Shown: positions 13,490 through 48,262 of the stretch, piece by piece
Layout of the letters: every line of letters starts with the position of its first letter
Numbering within the stretch: the stretch's first letter is position 1
NCBI GenBank assembly: GCA_017626015.1
Contig: JAGAJO010000024.1
Span: 1 to 48,939, forward strand
Source: Ruminococcus sp.
GTDB taxonomy: Bacteria > Bacillota > Clostridia > Oscillospirales > Ruminococcaceae
Length of the DNA stretch: 48,939 nucleotides
Reading direction: 5' to 3'
Program-made: the position numbers and the translations under genes
The notes under the pieces: model-generated
The model's input: the letters and a program-made list of their open reading frames with translations, nothing else
The model's database searches: none
What the model was told of the DNA's origin: nothing

Positions 13490-14851
13490 ATGAACATATT
13501 AGACTACATAAAACCCACATACACGTTCAAAGAGATCAACGACTATATGAAAAATCTTCCGCTGGAGGTCAAGGAGCAGATATCTGTCGAGGTCATAAGA
13601 CAGGCTCTGAGCAAGAGCAGACACACGATCGCCATAGCATTTTCAGGCGGTAAGGACAGTCAGGTAGTCGCAGACCTGATAGAGCGTAATTCCCCCGAAG
13701 ATTTCAGCCGTGTGCATTGCATTTTCGGCAATACGGGAATCGAATTTCCAGAAAGCCTGAGATTTGCAAGGAAGTACGGAAAGGAGCATTTCGGGGACAG
13801 ATTTCACGAAACCATGCTGCTTGAATTGCAGGAGGACGAACTCAGATACGATTTCGCCCGTCAGATAGTCGATCAGTTGGAGGACGAAAATGCTCTAGAG
13901 GAAATACTCAAGCCCGACGGTAAGTTGAAAGGTCAGAAAGCTCTTGTCAGCGCAGCTCTTAAACGAGGCTATACGCTCGACCGAACAAACTGTTTTTTCA
14001 AAGGACATAAGATGAATTTTGCTTACTGTGTTGAACAGTACGGAGTTCCGCTTCTGGGCAAGGCAACTTCAAAGCTTGACGCTCACAGAATAAACATCGA
14101 GTGCTTTTTAAAGTACTCGCAGACCGACAGCAAAAAGGACGAGCTGAAGGAGTATTACAGCATTCTCCGGGAGTGCAAGTTCTCGCAGCATTGCTGTAAG
14201 CTGCTGAAAAAAGCTCCGTCGGAAAAACTTCAGGCAGAGCTTGATGTTGATATGATCTTCAAGGGACTTATGGCAAGCGAAAGCCACAGCAGAATGACGA
14301 GCATTTCCACCAGAGGACACATTTTCGCAAGCAGCAGACCGCACATCACGGACGGCGCATTTTATCATGTCAACCCCATAGCTTTATGGACAGATGACGA
14401 TGTGTGGGCTTACATTCACAAATATGACATGGAATATTCTCCGCTTTACGATATCACTTACATTGCGGAGGACGGTACAGAGCAGCACATCAAGCGAAAC
14501 GGCTGTATTATGTGCGGAACGGATATTCAGTTTAAAGATAATCACTTAGCGGTACTCAGGCAGACCCACCCGACAGCATGGCGTTCCTGCATGGAAGCGT
14601 TCGGCTACCGAGATCAGCTGTACAAGCTGTTCCGTCTGAAAAAGGATAAGAATATTTTATCATCGTTTACCGACGACGGCACGAAAGCACGGCTGATAGA
14701 CCGTTTCGGAGGAGTTGAAACTCTGTTACACGCAAAGCCCTGTGCGTATGATGATTTCGGAGAACTGGTAGATCTTACGGGTACAGGACTTGAAAGAGAG
14801 TATGATGCTGAGGTGCTGGAAATGGAAGACGGACAGTTGAAGATCATTTGA
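13490..14851 (+). CDS. PAPS-reductase-like PP-loop protein
   Basis: This 453-residue member of the adenine-nucleotide alpha-hydrolase (PP-loop) superfamily has SGGKDSQVV near residue 54, then FGNTGIEFPESL, as in PAPS reductases. C-terminal motifs WTDDDVWAYI and CIMCGTDIQF are also typical. A middle cysteine group (CKFSQHCCKLL) could bind a metal cluster. DndC and IbrA proteins share this fold, but no Dnd or Ibr partners are here. It is followed by a radical SAM gene and a C5-methyltransferase with little or no spacing. I infer a nucleotide- or DNA-modifying role rather than sulfate assimilation. Confidence 0.85.
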   Translation: MNILDYIKPTYTFKEINDYMKNLPLEVKEQISVEVIRQALSKSRHTIAIAFSGGKDSQVVADLIERNSPEDFSRVHCIFGNTGIEFPESLRFARKYGKEHFGDRFHETMLLELQEDELRYDFARQIVDQLEDENALEEILKPDGKLKGQKALVSAALKRGYTLDRTNCFFKGHKMNFAYCVEQYGVPLLGKATSKLDAHRINIECFLKYSQTDSKKDELKEYYSILRECKFSQHCCKLLKKAPSEKLQAELDVDMIFKGLMASESHSRMTSISTRGHIFASSRPHITDGAFYHVNPIALWTDDDVWAYIHKYDMEYSPLYDITYIAEDGTEQHIKRNGCIMCGTDIQFKDNHLAVLRQTHPTAWRSCMEAFGYRDQLYKLFRLKKDKNILSSFTDDGTKARLIDRFGGVETLLHAKPCAYDDFGELVDLTGTGLEREYDAEVLEMEDGQLKII

Positions 14852-14867
14852 TGATTTGGAGGGAGCT

Positions 14868-15779
14868 ATGAAAATCGGTTTATGGAGCGACAGCCATAAT
14901 TTCCCCAGCCTGCCGTTAATGAAACTGTCTGCATATCACAAATCTATCGGCGATACGGTTGAAACGCTGGACTATTTAACACACTACGATCTTGTTTATG
15001 CAAGCAAGGTTTTCAGTTTTACAAAGGACATTGAGGACGACTGCATTGTTCAGGCGGACGAAATACGCAGAGGCGGCACGGGTTACTGCATATCGGTAAT
15101 CGACGGCAAAGAGGTATTTGACAAATCAAAGGACACGCCGCTGCCGAAAGAGATCGAGCATATCTATCCCGATTACAGCATTTTCCCGAAATACGAATAT
15201 GCAACGGGATTTCTGACAAGGGGCTGTCCCCGAAACTGCGGATTTTGCATAGTCGGAAAGAAAGAGGGCTTATGCTCCCGTCAGGTGGCGGACTTGTCCG
15301 AGTTCTGGAGAGGACAAAAGGAAATAAAGCTGCTTGACCCCAATTTACTGGCTTGCAAGGAACACGAAAGTATTTTGAAACAGCTTGCGGAAAGCGGCGC
15401 AAAGGTTGATTTCACACAGGGAATTGACATTCGTCTGACAAATCCCGATAATATATCCCTGCTCAACAAAGTCAAAACAAGTATGATACATTTTGCATGG
15501 GATGATCCGAAACAAGATCTGACAGAATGTTTCAAACTGTTTGCAGAGCATACAAGCATAAAGTCCGATCGGAACAAGGCGGTATATGTACTGACGAATT
15601 TCAACAGCACGATTGACGAAGATCTGTACCGCATATACACCTTGCGTGATCTGGGTTACAGCCCCTACGTTATGATCTATCAAAAGGAGACAGCAGACAA
15701 AACGCACAAACGATTACAACGCTGGGTAAATTGCAGATGGATTTTTCACAGCGTGGAAAGATTTGAGGAATATAAATGA
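14868..15779 (+). CDS. Radical SAM protein
   Basis: This 303-residue protein has the cluster motif C-x3-C-x2-C in RGCPRNCGFC near residue 120. The N-terminal 100 residues (MKIGLWSDSHNFPSLPLMKL) recall B12-binding-like domains of larger radical SAM enzymes. It lies 16 bp after the PP-loop gene and overlaps the methyltransferase by ATGA, so the three are co-translated. Substrate is not known. Start ATG 14868 has GGAGGG upstream; an earlier in-frame TTG lies upstream of that site. Confidence 0.85.
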   Translation: MKIGLWSDSHNFPSLPLMKLSAYHKSIGDTVETLDYLTHYDLVYASKVFSFTKDIEDDCIVQADEIRRGGTGYCISVIDGKEVFDKSKDTPLPKEIEHIYPDYSIFPKYEYATGFLTRGCPRNCGFCIVGKKEGLCSRQVADLSEFWRGQKEIKLLDPNLLACKEHESILKQLAESGAKVDFTQGIDIRLTNPDNISLLNKVKTSMIHFAWDDPKQDLTECFKLFAEHTSIKSDRNKAVYVLTNFNSTIDEDLYRIYTLRDLGYSPYVMIYQKETADKTHKRLQRWVNCRWIFHSVERFEEYK

Positions 15780-17074
15780 CATTCATAGATTTTTTCGCAG
15801 GGACAGGAGGCTTCCGGCGAGGAATGGAGCTTGCCGGACATAAATGCCTAGGCTTCTGCGAGTACGATAAATTTGCGGTGCAGTCGTACCGCGCAATGCA
15901 CGACACGGAGGGAGAATGGTATGCAAAGGATATACGAGAAGTCAGGGCAGCTGACGTTCCTCGAGCCGACGTCTGGTGCGCAGGATTCCCCTGTCAGGAC
16001 GTCAGCATCGCGGGGAAATGCCTCGGGTTCAAAGGAAAGCGTTCAAGCCTGTTTTTTGCAGTTACAGGACTTGTTAGAGACCTCGGGGAAAAAGATCGAC
16101 CCTCTTACCTGTTATTTGAGAACGTTAAAAATCTACTTAGCGTTAACGGAGGGTTTGACTTCGCCCGCATTCTCGTTGAGCTGGACGAGATCGGGTACGA
16201 TGTCGAATGGCAGCTTATCAACTCTGCCGAAGTCGTCCCTCAGAACAGGGAAAGAGTGTTTATTGTCGGACGTATTAGAAGCAAACACGGACGAAAAGTA
16301 TTTCCTGTCGGAGAAAGCGTTGAAATTCATAACAGACCCGAAACGGCTGGGAAAATACACGGAGATAAAGTAATGACATTAACTGCAAAAGGTCAGTCCA
16401 ACTGGACTGGAACATTTATTAAGCAGATATGCAACGTCAGCCCTACAAAAACAAGGTCAAATCCCAATCAGGGCAGAGTGTACGACACAAGCGGAATTGC
16501 ACCCTGTCTGAACTGTATGGGCGGCGGAGGGCTTGAACCTAAGATAGCAATACCTATTTCTATGACGCAGAAAAAAATAAAACCGTGTGAATTAGCACCG
16601 ACTTTGACAGCAGCCGGACCTTCCAGAGGCAGAGGTAACAGCAGTCCTGTCGGCGGAGTAATGATAAAAACCGCAATACCATGTATTACACCTGACCGCA
16701 TAAACAAACGGCAGAACGGACGGCGTTTCAAAAATAATAACGATCCGATGTTTACTCTTACGGCGCAGGACAGACACGGGGTTATAATTTACAGTGGTGA
16801 AAAATATTTTATCCGCAAGCTCACGCCCCTTGAATGCTGGAGATTACAGGGCTGGGAGGACGAATATTTCTTCCGCGCGTTTTTCCTGGACAAGGACTTG
16901 GCGCATAAATTCAATAACGCCTACCAGCGGCATAAAAGCAACCCCGTCCGCCTTATGCGCTGGGCGTTCGGACATCAGAAAATGTCAGACAGTCAGCTGT
17001 ACAAACAGGCGGGCAACGGGGTTACAGTGACGGTTATCCGGCGTATAGCCGAAAAATTCAGATCGGAGGAATGA
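15776..17074 (+). CDS. DNA cytosine-C5 methyltransferase
   Basis: This full-length 432-residue enzyme methylates C5 of cytosine in DNA. Visible motifs: I FFAGTGGF (6-13), IV GFPCQD with catalytic C73, VI ENV (115-117), VIII QNRERVF (156-162), IX RKLTPLECWRLQG, and X QAGNGV near the end. The target recognition region, about residues 175-330, is long and contains several TLTA-type segments. No restriction enzyme partner is beside it, so it is probably a solitary anti-restriction methylase. A second ORF with its own ribosome-binding site is overprinted in the +1 frame at 15921-16373. Confidence 0.95.
   Translation: MTFIDFFAGTGGFRRGMELAGHKCLGFCEYDKFAVQSYRAMHDTEGEWYAKDIREVRAADVPRADVWCAGFPCQDVSIAGKCLGFKGKRSSLFFAVTGLVRDLGEKDRPSYLLFENVKNLLSVNGGFDFARILVELDEIGYDVEWQLINSAEVVPQNRERVFIVGRIRSKHGRKVFPVGESVEIHNRPETAGKIHGDKVMTLTAKGQSNWTGTFIKQICNVSPTKTRSNPNQGRVYDTSGIAPCLNCMGGGGLEPKIAIPISMTQKKIKPCELAPTLTAAGPSRGRGNSSPVGGVMIKTAIPCITPDRINKRQNGRRFKNNNDPMFTLTAQDRHGVIIYSGEKYFIRKLTPLECWRLQGWEDEYFFRAFFLDKDLAHKFNNAYQRHKSNPVRLMRWAFGHQKMSDSQLYKQAGNGVTVTVIRRIAEKFRSEE
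15921..16373 (+). CDS. Overprinted ORF inside the C5 methyltransferase
   Basis: A 150-codon ORF in another frame of the methyltransferase gene has GGAGGGAGA seven bases before its ATG. Segments such as SPVRTSAS, SLSWTRSGTMSNGSL and CLLSDVLEANTDEKYFLSEK recall free-standing phage proteins (RTS..., SLSDILE...KYFLS) that I have seen next to DNA methylases. That resemblance and the ribosome-binding site are why I list it. It could instead be an artefact of methyltransferase codons recurring in other genomes. Expression is not shown. Confidence 0.5.
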   Translation: MQRIYEKSGQLTFLEPTSGAQDSPVRTSASRGNASGSKESVQACFLQLQDLLETSGKKIDPLTCYLRTLKIYLALTEGLTSPAFSLSWTRSGTMSNGSLSTLPKSSLRTGKECLLSDVLEANTDEKYFLSEKALKFITDPKRLGKYTEIK

Positions 17075-22026: not shown

Positions 22027-23862
22027 TTAGGATCTGAGCAGATCAATAAATTGCTGTTCGTTGATAATGGTTATATTATAACCGTCAGCGATAAGTTTTT
22101 CGGCTTTTAAGAGCTTTTCGGATTTCTCCCCTTTAGGTGCATTGAAATCCTCATAGCTTCCCAGAACGAGAATATCTGTTTTTCTGGAAACTTTTTCAGT
22201 GACCTTTCCGCCGGCTGCTTTAACGGCTTTTTTAGCGGTCTCTCTGGATCTTTTAAGGCTTCCGGAAAAAACTACTACTGAATTTTTCAAGGTAAGCGGG
22301 GTAACGTCAGTTTTTGGATCTTCTGCGGGGGTTGACGGCTGGGCGTTATCAATTTTTTCTGTCGGCTGCAGAAGCTTTACAAGCCATTCGGCATTTTTAC
22401 GGAAACTTCTTGCTTCTCTTGTATGGTAATTAAACTTGTGCTCGTCCTCTTTCAGCTCGTGAAGCATTTTATCCTGTTCCGGGGTCAATCTGGCATCGGG
22501 GCGGGTCTTGCGGAATTTTTCTATTGAATTTACAACTTTATCGTATTTTTCAGCATTTTCCCGCAGCAGCTCTGCTGATTTTTCGTTCTGATCTGCTGAA
22601 TCGTTCAGATAGTCGATCAGATTTTTGACGTCTTCAGGGGTGCAGCCGTTTTTTATATCGGTAGCTAAAATTTTCAGATTTTTTATAGTTGTCGGAAAAA
22701 ATTCAGGCAAACAAAGCTCGATCTGTCTTGAACCGTTCTTGATTTTTAGGGCTTTCGGGAAAGTTTTTTTGACTGTCGGAATATCTGAAATTTTATCGGA
22801 AATTCTTTCAGAGGGTTCCGAATCGGTTACAGTTGCCGGAGTTTCGGCGGTTGTAACGGGTCCGGAGCTTTCCGGCAATCCGTCCGGCTTATCGTCGGAC
22901 GGGTCCGGGGTTTCGGGATCCAGCATATTCAGGATATATTCGGCGGCTTTTTGCGCACGGCTGGCAGCGTACACGATCATGTGCTTATCGTTTTTTAACG
23001 CCCTGAGCCACGACTGAATATAGGCGGCTGAATTTTTCAGCGTCGATGCGGTTTCCATACCGGAAGCGCTACACAGAAAAGCGGCTCCCATTTCGGCTAT
23101 AAGCTCCTCACGGCTGTAAACTTCTGAGCCGAAAGGATGATACGAGGCGGCATTAACGCCCTCACGGTCAAGGCGTGTTTTGTGTCCGGTCGAATGCGTC
23201 AGTTCGTGAAATGCCGTGGAATAATATGCTTCCGCTGTTTTGTATTGGCTTATGTCGGGGATTTTTACGGCGTCAACGATCGGGCTGTAATATGCCTTTT
23301 CGGAAATGCCGGAGAAGAACATTATACCGGATTTTTTTACATAGTCGGCTATGATCTTTTCAGCAGATACAGATCTTGCCGGGGGGATCGGTGCAGGCTT
23401 TGCGGTCACGCCTTCAACGTCGCTTTCGTGGAATACGGCGAAACGTCTTAGAACGGGGTAGCCGATGACGATCTTTTCGCCGTTCTCGTCCAGCTCGTCA
23501 GTCTCTTTTTTCTGGGTTTTGTAGAAATAGATATAATCAGCTTTTGCACCCTTGCGGATCTTGGCGCCCGATTCTGTCCACTGTTTGAAAGTGGCATAGC
23601 AGCCGGAGCGGTTGAGGATCATTTGATTGATAAAACTGTACGGCTTGCCGCTGAAATAGTTCCGTGCCGCTGCCGGGTCCCCGCTCCAGGGTTTTTCCCA
23701 TGGAATAATGCCGGCGCTCAACTGCTCTGTGATCTTTGCGGTGATCGTTTCGTAAATGTCAGGCTTGGACTTTTTAGCCGTCTCGCTGCTCTTGCGGGTC
23801 TTGTCGGCGATGGTGATCGTCTGGATCCTTCCTATGTAGTCTGAATTTGTTGCGTTTTTCAT
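22027..23862 (-). CDS. ArdC-like antirestriction protein with C-terminal BRCT
   Basis: This 611-residue protein has three parts. Residues 34-145 form an ArdC N-terminal ssDNA-binding domain (IPWEKPW, ARNYFSGKPYSFIN, GAKADYIYFY). Residues 165-315 form a zincin-like metallopeptidase with HELTHSTGH (H219, E220, H223) and EELIAEMGAAF. After a linker and coiled region, residues about 528-610 form a BRCT domain (VVVFSGSLKRSRETA; TDILVLGSYEDF). ArdC proteins are linked to protection of incoming DNA from restriction. Fusion to BRCT is uncommon to my knowledge. It is leftward inside the late region, which implies separate control. Confidence 0.9.
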   Translation of the reverse strand: MKNATNSDYIGRIQTITIADKTRKSSETAKKSKPDIYETITAKITEQLSAGIIPWEKPWSGDPAAARNYFSGKPYSFINQMILNRSGCYATFKQWTESGAKIRKGAKADYIYFYKTQKKETDELDENGEKIVIGYPVLRRFAVFHESDVEGVTAKPAPIPPARSVSAEKIIADYVKKSGIMFFSGISEKAYYSPIVDAVKIPDISQYKTAEAYYSTAFHELTHSTGHKTRLDREGVNAASYHPFGSEVYSREELIAEMGAAFLCSASGMETASTLKNSAAYIQSWLRALKNDKHMIVYAASRAQKAAEYILNMLDPETPDPSDDKPDGLPESSGPVTTAETPATVTDSEPSERISDKISDIPTVKKTFPKALKIKNGSRQIELCLPEFFPTTIKNLKILATDIKNGCTPEDVKNLIDYLNDSADQNEKSAELLRENAEKYDKVVNSIEKFRKTRPDARLTPEQDKMLHELKEDEHKFNYHTREARSFRKNAEWLVKLLQPTEKIDNAQPSTPAEDPKTDVTPLTLKNSVVVFSGSLKRSRETAKKAVKAAGGKVTEKVSRKTDILVLGSYEDFNAPKGEKSEKLLKAEKLIADGYNITIINEQQFIDLLRS

Positions 23863-45850: not shown

Positions 45851-45860
45851 GTATGATTAT

Positions 45861-45900
45861 AGCCGTCCTGGGGGTGTTCCGGGGCGGCTGAATTTTATTT
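45861..45900 (+). terminator. Terminator of structural/lysis operon
   Basis: AGCCGTCC (45861-45868) pairs with GGGCGGCT (one G-U pair), followed by GAATTTTATTT. It separates the lysis genes from the accessory operon. The rest of 45901-45976 is A/T-rich without an ORF. Confidence 0.7.
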
Positions 45901-45976: not shown

Positions 45977-46000
45977 TTCGTGTAAATAAATTTACACGAA
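45977..46000. promoter_or_regulatory. 24-bp palindromic operator
   Basis: TTCGTGTAAAT (45977-45987) and ATTTACACGAA (45990-46000) are perfect inverted copies with a 2-base centre. It ends three bases before the -35 of the next promoter, whose spacer repeats TGTAAAT and TTCGTG pieces. The regulator is not known. Confidence 0.75.
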
Positions 46001-46003
46001 CTA

Positions 46004-46032
46004 TTGACAATGTAAATTATTCGTGCTATAAT
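46004..46032 (+). promoter_or_regulatory. Consensus promoter of accessory operon
   Basis: TTGACA (46004-46009), a 17-bp spacer and TATAAT (46027-46032) match consensus. It drives 46079-48262 including the ribozyme. Confidence 0.85.
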
Positions 46033-46078: not shown

Positions 46079-46291
46079 ATGAAAAAGACCAATGAACTAA
46101 AAGCAAAATTACACGAAACATTTTCAAACAGAAATAATTGGAATAGGGAGGTTACGATTGACGGAGAAGTGTATATTTACATTTCTGCCACAAATGAAAT
46201 CCGCAGAATAGTTAAACAGCCTTGCGAAACAATAGCGCAATTAGTTGCTTGTTTAGTATGCAATTTTCAGGTCATTGTGTGGTGCTGTTAA
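46079..46291 (+). CDS. Small hypothetical protein of accessory operon
   Basis: This 70-residue protein (NELKAKLHETFSNRNNWNRE) is the first gene of the accessory operon; its last 15 residues are hydrophobic with Cys residues. Its stop falls five bases before the hammerhead stem I. No family is recognised. AGAGG precedes the ATG. Confidence 0.75.
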   Translation: MKKTNELKAKLHETFSNRNNWNREVTIDGEVYIYISATNEIRRIVKQPCETIAQLVACLVCNFQVIVWCC

Positions 46292-46295
46292 ATAA

Positions 46296-46348
46296 ACGCC
46301 CTGAGGAGTCTTTGAAAATTAAGACGAAACGCTGTAAAGCGTCGGTGT
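46296..46348 (+). ncRNA. Type I hammerhead ribozyme
   Basis: All conserved core positions are present in order. Stem I ACGCC (46296-46300) pairs with GGUGU (46344-46348). CUGAGGA (46301-46307) is core box 1. Stem II GUCUU (46308-46312) pairs with AAGAC (46321-46325) around an 8-nt loop. GAA (46326-46328) is core box 2. Stem III ACGCU (46329-46333) pairs with AGCGU (46338-46342) around a GUAA tetraloop, with the required A15.1-U16.1 pair. C46343 is H17, so self-cleavage is predicted between 46343 and 46344. Stem I is the open stem, hence type I. It lies between two co-transcribed genes and would leave a 33-nt 5'-OH leader on the 46377 message. Confidence 0.93.
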
Positions 46349-46376
46349 AAGCTAATCGAAATAGGGGGAAAAATCA

Positions 46377-47063
46377 ATGAAATACGACATAACATATTCT
46401 TGCGGACACACAGGTACAGTTGAACTGTTTGGAAAATCAGATGACAGACACCGCCGCTTAGAATGGCTGAAAGAGAACGCATTGTGTCCAGAGTGTTACA
46501 AAGAGCAGCACAAGGACGACCCAGTTGTTGTTAAAGTAACACCATTCGGGAGTGTAAAAGGCACAGGTGAGCCTGTGTTTCTGACAGAAATTTGTGGAAA
46601 CACAAGACCCCACAAAGGGGCTATAAAAAATATAGGTTTTGAGTGGGACGGTATCTGCTGGCACAGAAAATTATATATGTCTCAGCTAGACGATTTCGAG
46701 AACGCTGTAATGCAGATCGGTAACGTGAAACTGGACGATAGTTACGTTAATATCCGCCGTGAAATGGAAAATCTGCCGGACGAAGCGAAAGAGTTGCTGG
46801 CAAAGTTCCACGCAGAGTGGGACGAAAAGAAAAAGGGATATGTTGTTCCGGAAAAGCCGGCACTGCTTTCTTCGGGCAAAAGGTGGAACGGCAAAGTATA
46901 CGGAAAATCAGGCAACTTTTCGGTATATCTTGATGGCGAAAAGGTCAACGTGTCGGACGCTGAAGCTGATGATCTGCGCAGATACCTGACTGCAAAGGGA
47001 GAAAGCGAAGACATTCACGAAGAAATGAAAGGCGTATTAATTATGCCGGCGGTGAGAGGATGA
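46377..47063 (+). CDS. Phage protein with SCGHTG N-terminus
   Basis: This 228-residue protein starts YDITYSCGHTGTVELFG, a recurring N-terminal metal-binding-like domain (C-x-H plus later C-x2-C in CPECYK) of phage and plasmid proteins. The second part (GFEWDGICWHRKLYM) is seen in the same family. The C-terminal half is not recognised. Its leader is created by ribozyme cleavage if that occurs; AGGGGG precedes the ATG. Confidence 0.8.
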   Translation: MKYDITYSCGHTGTVELFGKSDDRHRRLEWLKENALCPECYKEQHKDDPVVVKVTPFGSVKGTGEPVFLTEICGNTRPHKGAIKNIGFEWDGICWHRKLYMSQLDDFENAVMQIGNVKLDDSYVNIRREMENLPDEAKELLAKFHAEWDEKKKGYVVPEKPALLSSGKRWNGKVYGKSGNFSVYLDGEKVNVSDAEADDLRRYLTAKGESEDIHEEMKGVLIMPAVRG

Positions 47064-47067
47064 TAAA

Positions 47068-47802
47068 ATGGCTTGCGAAGATCTTATAGGACATAAATTC
47101 GGGGAATTGGAGGTACTAGAAAAGTTATCCTGGAAAAGCAGCAGAGGTTATTTCTGTTGGAAATGTCGTTGTAACGTCTGCGGAAAAATCGTTGAACGTG
47201 ATACAAAACAATTACACAGCAAAAGCATTCGTAGTTGCGGCTGCACAGTCAAACAAAAGAATTTAAAAAAATGTGTCTATTGTGGCAAGAAATTTTCATG
47301 TTCCCCATCATCTAAAAGGGTAACGTGTTCCAAAGAATGCAGCAGCTTATGGCGGAGCAATTTTCAAAAAGGAAAGAAAATGTCATCTGACCAAAAGAAA
47401 AAAATTTCTGAAACACACAAAAAAATAAGTGCAGAAAATGAAGAAATAAAATTGAAATGGCAGACATGCGCAAAAAAAGCTTCAGACGCCGCTAAAAAAT
47501 CGCCTAACTCTGGTAGATTTGTTACACATCACGCCGCAAAAGTATGGACGGTTATATATCTTCCGACGCAAGAAGAGTTTACATTTACAAATCTGTCCTT
47601 GTGGGTCAGAGAAAATATTGAAAGATTTGATTGTGAATTGACTGATAAAAATGTTGCAAGGATAGTACATGGATTTTACACAATAAAACGAAACGCAAAG
47701 CAAGGGAAAAACTGTATTACATACAGGGAATGGCAAGTAATTGCGTGGGGAGACGATTTAAGAAACAGGGAAAAAGCATCTACAGAACAGGAGGAAAAGT
47801 AG
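47068..47802 (+). CDS. Zinc-binding, HNH-accessory-like DNA-binding protein
   Basis: This 244-residue protein has an N-terminal domain with DLIGHKFGELEVLEKL, CRCNVCGK and SIRSCGCT, typical of phage proteins often joined to HNH or AP2 homing domains. A second Cys cluster follows (KKCVYCGKKFSC, TCSKEC), then a basic coiled region and a C-terminal domain of about 100 residues that may be a NUMOD-like DNA-binding part. No complete nuclease motif is seen. Confidence 0.75.
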   Translation: MACEDLIGHKFGELEVLEKLSWKSSRGYFCWKCRCNVCGKIVERDTKQLHSKSIRSCGCTVKQKNLKKCVYCGKKFSCSPSSKRVTCSKECSSLWRSNFQKGKKMSSDQKKKISETHKKISAENEEIKLKWQTCAKKASDAAKKSPNSGRFVTHHAAKVWTVIYLPTQEEFTFTNLSLWVRENIERFDCELTDKNVARIVHGFYTIKRNAKQGKNCITYREWQVIAWGDDLRNREKASTEQEEK

Positions 47803-47803
47803 A

Positions 47804-48262
47804 ATGGAATTAAGAGATCAGGTATACAATTTAGGTCAGATCTATGCTCGGCTGTGCAAGGCGGCAAATATGAACAGCCTCAACAATCCGCAGAGCTACG
47901 AGAGGGCCTGCCGTCAGCCAATGAGAGAGATCACGATAATTTATATTCAAAAACTGAGGGGAAGGCTGTCAAAGGAAGATAATGAATATGTGGGCATTCG
48001 TTTTAATGACATCGACGCAGACAACGATCTACTGTTCGGAGGGGCATTGCCGATAGAGCTGCAAGGCGTTTTTCAGTTGGGATATCACCACTCACAAGAG
48101 GAAAAGACCGTAAAGGAACTGATCGTCCGCACTGGATATAACCAGATTGAAATCGCCGAAAAACTGGGCGTAACACCTACTACGGTAAGTCGCTGGGCGT
48201 CAGGCAGCGTTAAAATTTCACAAGAAAACATCTATAAGATTGAACGTTTGAGGAAACCCTGA
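47804..48262 (+). CDS. Cas8c/Csd1 C-terminus-like domain fused to HTH
   Basis: Residues 1-98 of this 152-residue protein read like the C-terminal helical region of type I-C Cas8c (Csd1): VYNLGQIYARLCKAA at the start, a middle RQPMREITIIYIQKL, and LPIELQGVFQLGYHHSQEE at the end (Csd1 ends with a similar E-Q-G-x-F-x-x-G-Y-x-H-Q). In type I-C systems that region also yields the small subunit Cas11c. Residues 105-150 form a helix-turn-helix (NQIEIAEKLGVTPTTVSRWA). No other cas gene or array is in the window. I infer a phage-borne Cas mimic or DNA-binding relative that might interfere with a type I-C complex. Function is unproven. Confidence 0.7.
   Translation: MELRDQVYNLGQIYARLCKAANMNSLNNPQSYERACRQPMREITIIYIQKLRGRLSKEDNEYVGIRFNDIDADNDLLFGGALPIELQGVFQLGYHHSQEEKTVKELIVRTGYNQIEIAEKLGVTPTTVSRWASGSVKISQENIYKIERLRKP

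Follow-up and report, generated by a model that had tools for sequence, protein, structure and literature searches.

The prophage operon

The window (the whole stretch of DNA analysed, 48,939 nt) carries genes for an integrase, a terminase, a portal protein, a holin and a CHAP endolysin. The terminase was up to 82% identical to those of phages recorded with Oscillospirales hosts, and the sequence-only reading of the region as a prophage was thus borne out. A tRNA-Ser gene beside the integrase is a likely attachment site. In the same prophage, genes for a PAPS-reductase-like protein and a C5-cytosine methylase lie near each other, and an anti-restriction protein of the ArdC type that includes a BRCT domain is encoded as well.

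The hammerhead motif described below adjoins co-directional prophage genes on both sides. It lies in an operon in which a promoter is followed by the 70-aa gene, the ribozyme and three further genes encoding 228, 244 and 152 aa. The features outside the ribozyme are as follows.

50-139: tRNA-Ser gene, beside the integrase
About 204-1352 (also given as 201-1352), minus strand: integrase, a prophage gene
13490-17074 and 22027-23862: PAPS-reductase-like and C5-cytosine methylase genes; ArdC-type protein
45860-45890, plus strand: terminator-like hairpin behind the endolysin
45977-46000, no strand assigned: inverted repeat TTCGTGTAAAT-AA-ATTTACACGAA, 24 nt, found by eye directly upstream of the promoter
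46004-46032, plus strand: promoter-like TTGACA-17-TATAAT of the sigma-70 type, 12/12, with TG before the second hexamer
46079-46291, plus strand: upstream cistron encoding 70 aa, without a match in Pfam or PHROG
46289-46291, plus strand: UAA stop codon ending the upstream gene, 4 nt 5' of stem I
46292-46295, plus strand: AUAA, immediately 5' of stem I
46344-46376, plus strand: predicted 33-nt leader (5'-OH) at the head of the downstream message, from the sequence
46377-47063, plus strand: downstream cistron, 228 aa, residues 1-46 matching phrog_16123 (unknown function)
47068-47802, plus strand: next gene, 244 aa, no Pfam match
47804-48262, plus strand: HTH_3 protein, 152 aa, Pfam match

The hairpin at 45860-45890 sets the operon apart from the late genes. 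Together with the 12/12 promoter at 46004-46032, it agrees with the earlier description of an accessory operon. The inverted repeat appears operator-like by eye, and the HTH_3 protein is a possible regulator of the operon. The predicted leader contains a purine-rich stretch, AUAGGGGGA, before the start codon, which looks like a Shine-Dalgarno (SD) sequence by eye.

In 197 genomes of the family, the 70-aa protein had, outside the own genome, a single clear relative, at 53% identity, and a single weak match besides. The clear relative (locus L287, around 1501) has the same VWCC end, and by eye its stop codon runs straight into UAGGGGGGG without a ribozyme. The finder detected no hammerhead at the locus with a relative of the 228-aa gene (L290).

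Structure of the hammerhead

The type I hammerhead consensus consists of CUGANGA and GAA core segments, an A15.1-U16.1 pair and H at position 17. All of these were present between 46296 and 46348 of the plus strand, in the following arrangement.

46296-46348, plus strand: type I hammerhead ribozyme, predicted cut 46343^46344 (from the sequence, the finder and model R1)
46296-46300 (ACGCC) with 46344-46348 (GGUGU), plus strand: stem I, 5 bp, with a single G-U pair, G46298-U46346
46301-46307, plus strand: CUGAGGA core, from the sequence
46308-46312 (GUCUU) with 46321-46325 (AAGAC), plus strand: stem II, 5 bp, loop UGAAAAUU
46326-46328, plus strand: GAA core, G12 being 46326
46329-46333 (ACGCU) with 46338-46342 (AGCGU), plus strand: stem III, 5 bp, loop GUAA
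46343, plus strand: C17, from the sequence

Stem I is open-ended, and stems II and III are closed by loops. The element is therefore a complete type I hammerhead, and every consensus feature that the sequence-only reading had listed (CUGAGGA, GAA, A15.1-U16.1, H17 = C and three 5-bp stems with one G-U in stem I) was confirmed. The G at core position 7 is rare, occurring in 4 of 299 hammerheads, the window's included.

The minimum-energy fold of the 53 nt was exactly the hammerhead structure (-14 kcal/mol, z -2.0). Since 7 of 200 shuffles folded as stably, folding energy by itself is weak evidence.

A strict finder (CUGANGA, stems I/II/III of at least 4/3/3 bp, GAA, A15.1-U16.1 and H17) gave a single match in the 48,939 bases of both strands, with a score of 14.5. 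The 300 windows simulated by an order-2 Markov model gave two matches in total, both with a score of 10, and none of the 300 equalled the window. Searches of the window for type II and type III hammerheads were negative.

A covariance model, R1, was built from 60 relatives among the finder's hits, with the window excluded (77 were eligible before thinning). It gave the window ribozyme 70.7 bits (E 1.6e-19), and no other place in the window exceeded 11.7 bits (E 0.44). In the window's own genome, R1 found no second match at E up to 1 among the 150 of 1298 candidates scored. These results, with the full motif and the 0 of 300 simulated windows, upheld the assignment as a type I hammerhead.

Pairing was conserved among the relatives. 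In the R1 alignment, whose 60 sequences had been pre-selected for pairing by the finder, 99.3% of the cells were paired, and sliding the partner reduced this to 25-42%. There were 218 double-changed cells, compared with 62.5 in shuffles. Stems I and III covaried; stem II was invariant in this set because the search pattern had fixed it. In a separate count that avoided circularity, 159 distinct hits were chosen solely by a pattern of the core, stem II and AC. Stem I with 5 bp or more and stem III with 4 bp or more both formed in 135 of them, and 24 gave no fold under these stem limits. When the 3' parts were re-dealt, the mean number that paired was 13.35 and the maximum 18 (20 trials).

Coverage by Rfam

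The sequence-only reading had proposed a scan with the Rfam hammerhead models, and this check turned out negative: Rfam 15 reported no hammerhead, and also no Pistol ribozyme, at gathering score in the window. In an E-value scan of 57 nt, Hammerhead_3 (RF00008) gave 25.5 bits (gathering 48.5) in a different register, cut at the 5' end. RAGATH-1-hammerhead (RF03152) gave 14.1 bits (gathering 56.3). Both families have the same core as the window ribozyme, and RF03152 alone aligned in the right register.

Likewise, no hammerhead was reported at gathering score in 58 sibling loci (20 + 19 + 19). Forty-nine of these were among the 51 bacterial contigs described below, every one with an R1 match. 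This suggested that the Rfam models do not cover the subfamily, so the miss in the window carries little information. A family model for the phage type I hammerheads of the 58 loci could be added to Rfam.

The subfamily and its hosts

A compact type I hammerhead pattern matched at least 120 stretches in viral contigs, and the window's stem II, GUCUUUGAAAAUUAAGAC, recurred exactly or nearly so in other loci. The pattern of core, stem II and AC matched 51 stretches of bacterial contigs and 114 of viral ones. By record title, 41 of the 51 bacterial matches were from Clostridia-type taxa, 7 were from Anaeroplasma, Elusimicrobia, Gastranaerophilales or Bacteroidales, and 3 could not be placed. Nine records matched in the phages collection (E up to 10), including Agathobaculum phages AB434P2 and AB434P3 and four crAss-like phages. 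Altogether, the finder detected 328 hammerheads (299 distinct) in 277 loci, spread over 250 of them. The subfamily comprised 146 distinct hammerheads, the window's included.

The loop UGAAAAUU was conserved in the subfamily, although it was partly fixed by the search pattern, and so were two A residues in front of stem I. With a 5-bp stem I, A was present at -2 in 77 of 79 members and at -1 in 77 of 79; with a 6-bp stem I, in 50 of 61 and 61 of 61, respectively. The AA was less constant in the other type I members, in which -1 was A in 34 of 48 and 66 of 84. This nearly invariant tail (-2, -1) may take part in a tertiary contact with loop II of the kind that allows fast cleavage.

Some phage contigs carried several type I hammerheads by the finder: 8, 7, 5 and 4 in L116, L029, L117 and L023, respectively. 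Their stems I were often near-identical and their stems III different. The crAss-like phage cr273_1 (L282, 2986-3045) gave a subfamily match of 61.5 bits with one extra core base (CUGAAUGA). The strict finder does not accept this match, and the ribozyme is possibly inactive.

The window ribozyme itself was not found elsewhere at the DNA level. Its 43-nt string had no near-identical DNA in viral contigs, the 100 related genomes had none besides the own genome, and a 1.25-kb query had none in phages. Of 295 genomes of the same taxonomic order, R1 matched 3, one of them the own genome. The matches in the remaining two (28.1 and 26.3 bits) are probably not members, since the finder gave no type I fold for them. 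In three related Oscillospirales-type phage records (one whole, two partial), the finder detected no hammerhead.

A close parallel is Agathobaculum phage AB434P2 (OP172633.1, L280), in which, as in the window, a short ORF is followed by a hammerhead, with the next CDS 33 nt on. Its hammerhead (69.2 bits with R1) has the UAA directly before stem I, compared with 4 nt before it in the window. It also differs in having a 6-bp stem I, a longer stem II and an A at core position 7. The flanking proteins differ from those of the window, and the CDS shown are all annotated as hypothetical. Taken together, the ribozyme's family is widespread and probably splits viral messages where one gene ends.

Placement relative to genes

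With genes called by a crude longest-ORF caller, 146 of 298 distinct hammerheads lay in co-directional gaps, compared with 7.9% of random placements, and 34 lay inside a gene of the same strand, compared with 56.1%. The remaining ones were inside an opposite-strand ORF (55), in convergent (25), divergent (16) or antisense (3) gaps, or at contig edges (19). Thus 152 of the 298 were outside a co-directional gap by this caller.

Stop codons were counted for genes of at least 180 nt ending within 60 nt of stem I, one case per locus. The stop codon ended no more than 1 nt from stem I in 59 of 128 loci, compared with 19% expected for three frames. Counting only the genes that did not stop before -3, 59 of 105 abutted stem I, compared with 30% (p 3e-8). 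The stop codon at this junction was UAA in 57 of 75. With the near-invariant AA, this indicated that the stop codon and a structural element coincide. The window, with its stop codon 4 nt before stem I, is near this tight class and yet outside it.

On the other side, the next gene started at a median of 34 nt after the cut (149 cases), and an SD-like tetramer was present within the last 20 nt of the leader in 103 of the 149. The 33-nt leader of the window is typical in this respect. The sequence-only reading had the ribozyme splitting 46079-46291 from 46377-47063 with such a leader; the coordinates agree with this.

Sequence conservation ended at the borders of the ribozyme. The flanking proteins were unrelated across loci, with no cluster larger than 3 of 84 on the upstream side and 5 of 75 on the downstream side. 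A tie to one gene family was ruled out, as the flanking genes share no common protein.

Five Pistol ribozymes (RF02679) were found in 4 of the 58 loci (L163, L137, L133 with two, and L170). All shared the strand of the subfamily hammerhead, and the stop codon of an ORF lay 1-8 nt ahead of each. In L137, an 84-aa ORF begins 35 nt after the Pistol and ends 1 nt before the hammerhead. The Pistol fold is unrelated to the hammerhead, and yet it occurs in a comparable position, just after a stop codon. We infer from two unrelated ribozymes in one type of slot that selection acts on the cut at the gene boundary rather than on the ribozyme fold.

Proposed separation of two cistrons and alternative readings

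We interpreted the element as an intercistronic, constitutive type I hammerhead whose self-cleavage would separate two cistrons, with a probability of about 0.7. RNA from the promoter near 46004-46032 would run through the 70-aa gene and the ribozyme, which would fold on leaving the polymerase and cut at 46343^46344. The upstream RNA, about 300 nt long, would keep stems II and III, so that its 3' end would consist of two hairpins and carry a 2',3'-cyclic phosphate. On the downstream message, a 5'-OH would precede a leader of 33 nt that extends to the AUG at 46377, and stability and translation would then be separate for each cistron. These ends are predicted on the basis of the known hammerhead reaction; RNA that ends in this way is generally protected from decay that depends on a 5'-monophosphate and from some 3' decay. 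With the single copy in the genome (150 of 1298 candidates scored), no gene would be cut out at both ends.

The motif, the independent model match, the conserved and covarying structure, the placement, the unrelated flanking genes, the Pistol ribozymes in the same slot and the published cases of cleavage support separation of the cistrons. A competing fold, the rare G7, the single genomic copy, the ribozyme-less L287, the inactivity of some consensus hammerheads (14 of 18 active in PMC3088659) and the 152 of 298 hammerheads outside co-directional gaps count against it. The full leader preferred the other fold (-20.5 kcal/mol, compared with -15.0 for the ribozyme), in which CCCUG pairs with UAGGGG. 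Of ten 3' ends tested, the ribozyme fold was the minimum only at 46352 and 46356. This pointed to cutting during transcription as the likely route.

The same competing helix could instead mean that translation depends on cleavage: an SD-like GGGGG would be held by CCCUG of stem I and the core until the cut freed it. The best fold of 46280-46376 does form the CCCUG/UAGGGG helix. Its duplex energy of -8.7 kcal/mol was equalled or exceeded by 11% of other leaders, and the strands could remain paired after the cut. Over 65 subfamily members, the value was -5.03 kcal/mol, compared with -5.18 with the leaders re-dealt, and 44 of 60 re-deals were at least as strong, so this is no family property. SD sequestration was rejected as a general mechanism for the subfamily, and for the window we regard it as very unlikely. 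The alternative fold, being more stable, and the missing Rfam gathering match would also suit a chance resemblance or a dead ribozyme. In view of the 0 of 300 simulated windows as good and the 70.7 bits with an independent model, this is highly improbable. A selfish or passenger element, that is, a hammerhead in a mobile element or a relic without a role in the phage, would account for the sporadic occurrence (of 100 related genomes, only the own one had a DNA match) and for the relative of the upstream gene without a ribozyme (L287). We consider it unlikely: conservation stops at the ribozyme borders, the flanking genes have no protein in common, all three stems are reported as kept by covariation (stem II being fixed by the search pattern), and random insertion would fall mostly into coding sequence (56% of random placements).

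A different possibility, rather unlikely, is that translation gates the cut. A terminating ribosome would cover the AA tail, stem I and the core, and cleavage would wait until it left, so that the ribozyme would sense whether the upstream gene is translated. The abutting stop codons (59 of 128, expected 19%; 59 of 105, compared with 30%), the UAA in 57 of 75 junctions and the nearly invariant AA would fit such gating. The abutment is also accounted for by genome compactness, and the window's own stop codon, 4 nt before stem I, is outside the tight class. A broader reading, about as unlikely, is that tailed phages use interchangeable ribozymes (type I hammerhead, Pistol) as standard parts in the slot that separates a stop codon from the following ribosome-binding site. 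The stop codon would abut or form part of the ribozyme's conserved 5' end, and the terminating ribosome on it would time the cut. Separation of the two cistrons by constitutive cleavage remains our preferred reading.

Comparison with known hammerheads

A 2017 review (PMC6155905) described the role of bacterial and phage hammerheads as an unsettled question. The rule of a stop codon against the ribozyme is measurable and makes this question experimentally addressable, for a subfamily (51 + 114 matches) that Rfam did not report in the 58 loci tried.

According to the excerpted text of Perreault et al. 2011 (PMC3088659), hundreds of bacterial hammerheads were reported, with clusters flanking genes in prophages, and phage hammerheads were proposed to process long transcripts into operon- or gene-length mRNAs. 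The same excerpts describe tandem phage-type arrays of C. scindens, A. caulinodans and A. tumefaciens that cleave in vitro, those of A. tumefaciens in E. coli as well. A halovirus mRNA 5' end maps no more than 3 nt from a hammerhead cut. Not all consensus hammerheads were active (14 of 18). Since phage hammerheads as mRNA processors were thus published in 2011, the window ribozyme joins a known kind.

Open-licence PMC text, mostly in the form of listings, yielded no paper on the stop-codon placement of phage hammerheads. Within the literature covered, the additions here are the stop-codon rule and the exchange with Pistol over many loci. As excerpted, the phage and prophage type I hammerheads of PMC3088659 have the same core and permutation as the window ribozyme and likewise lie between phage genes. 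They often, though not always, occur in several copies flanking single genes, in contrast to the one copy in the window and its genome. Stop-codon placement, measured here over 128 loci, was not seen in those excerpts.
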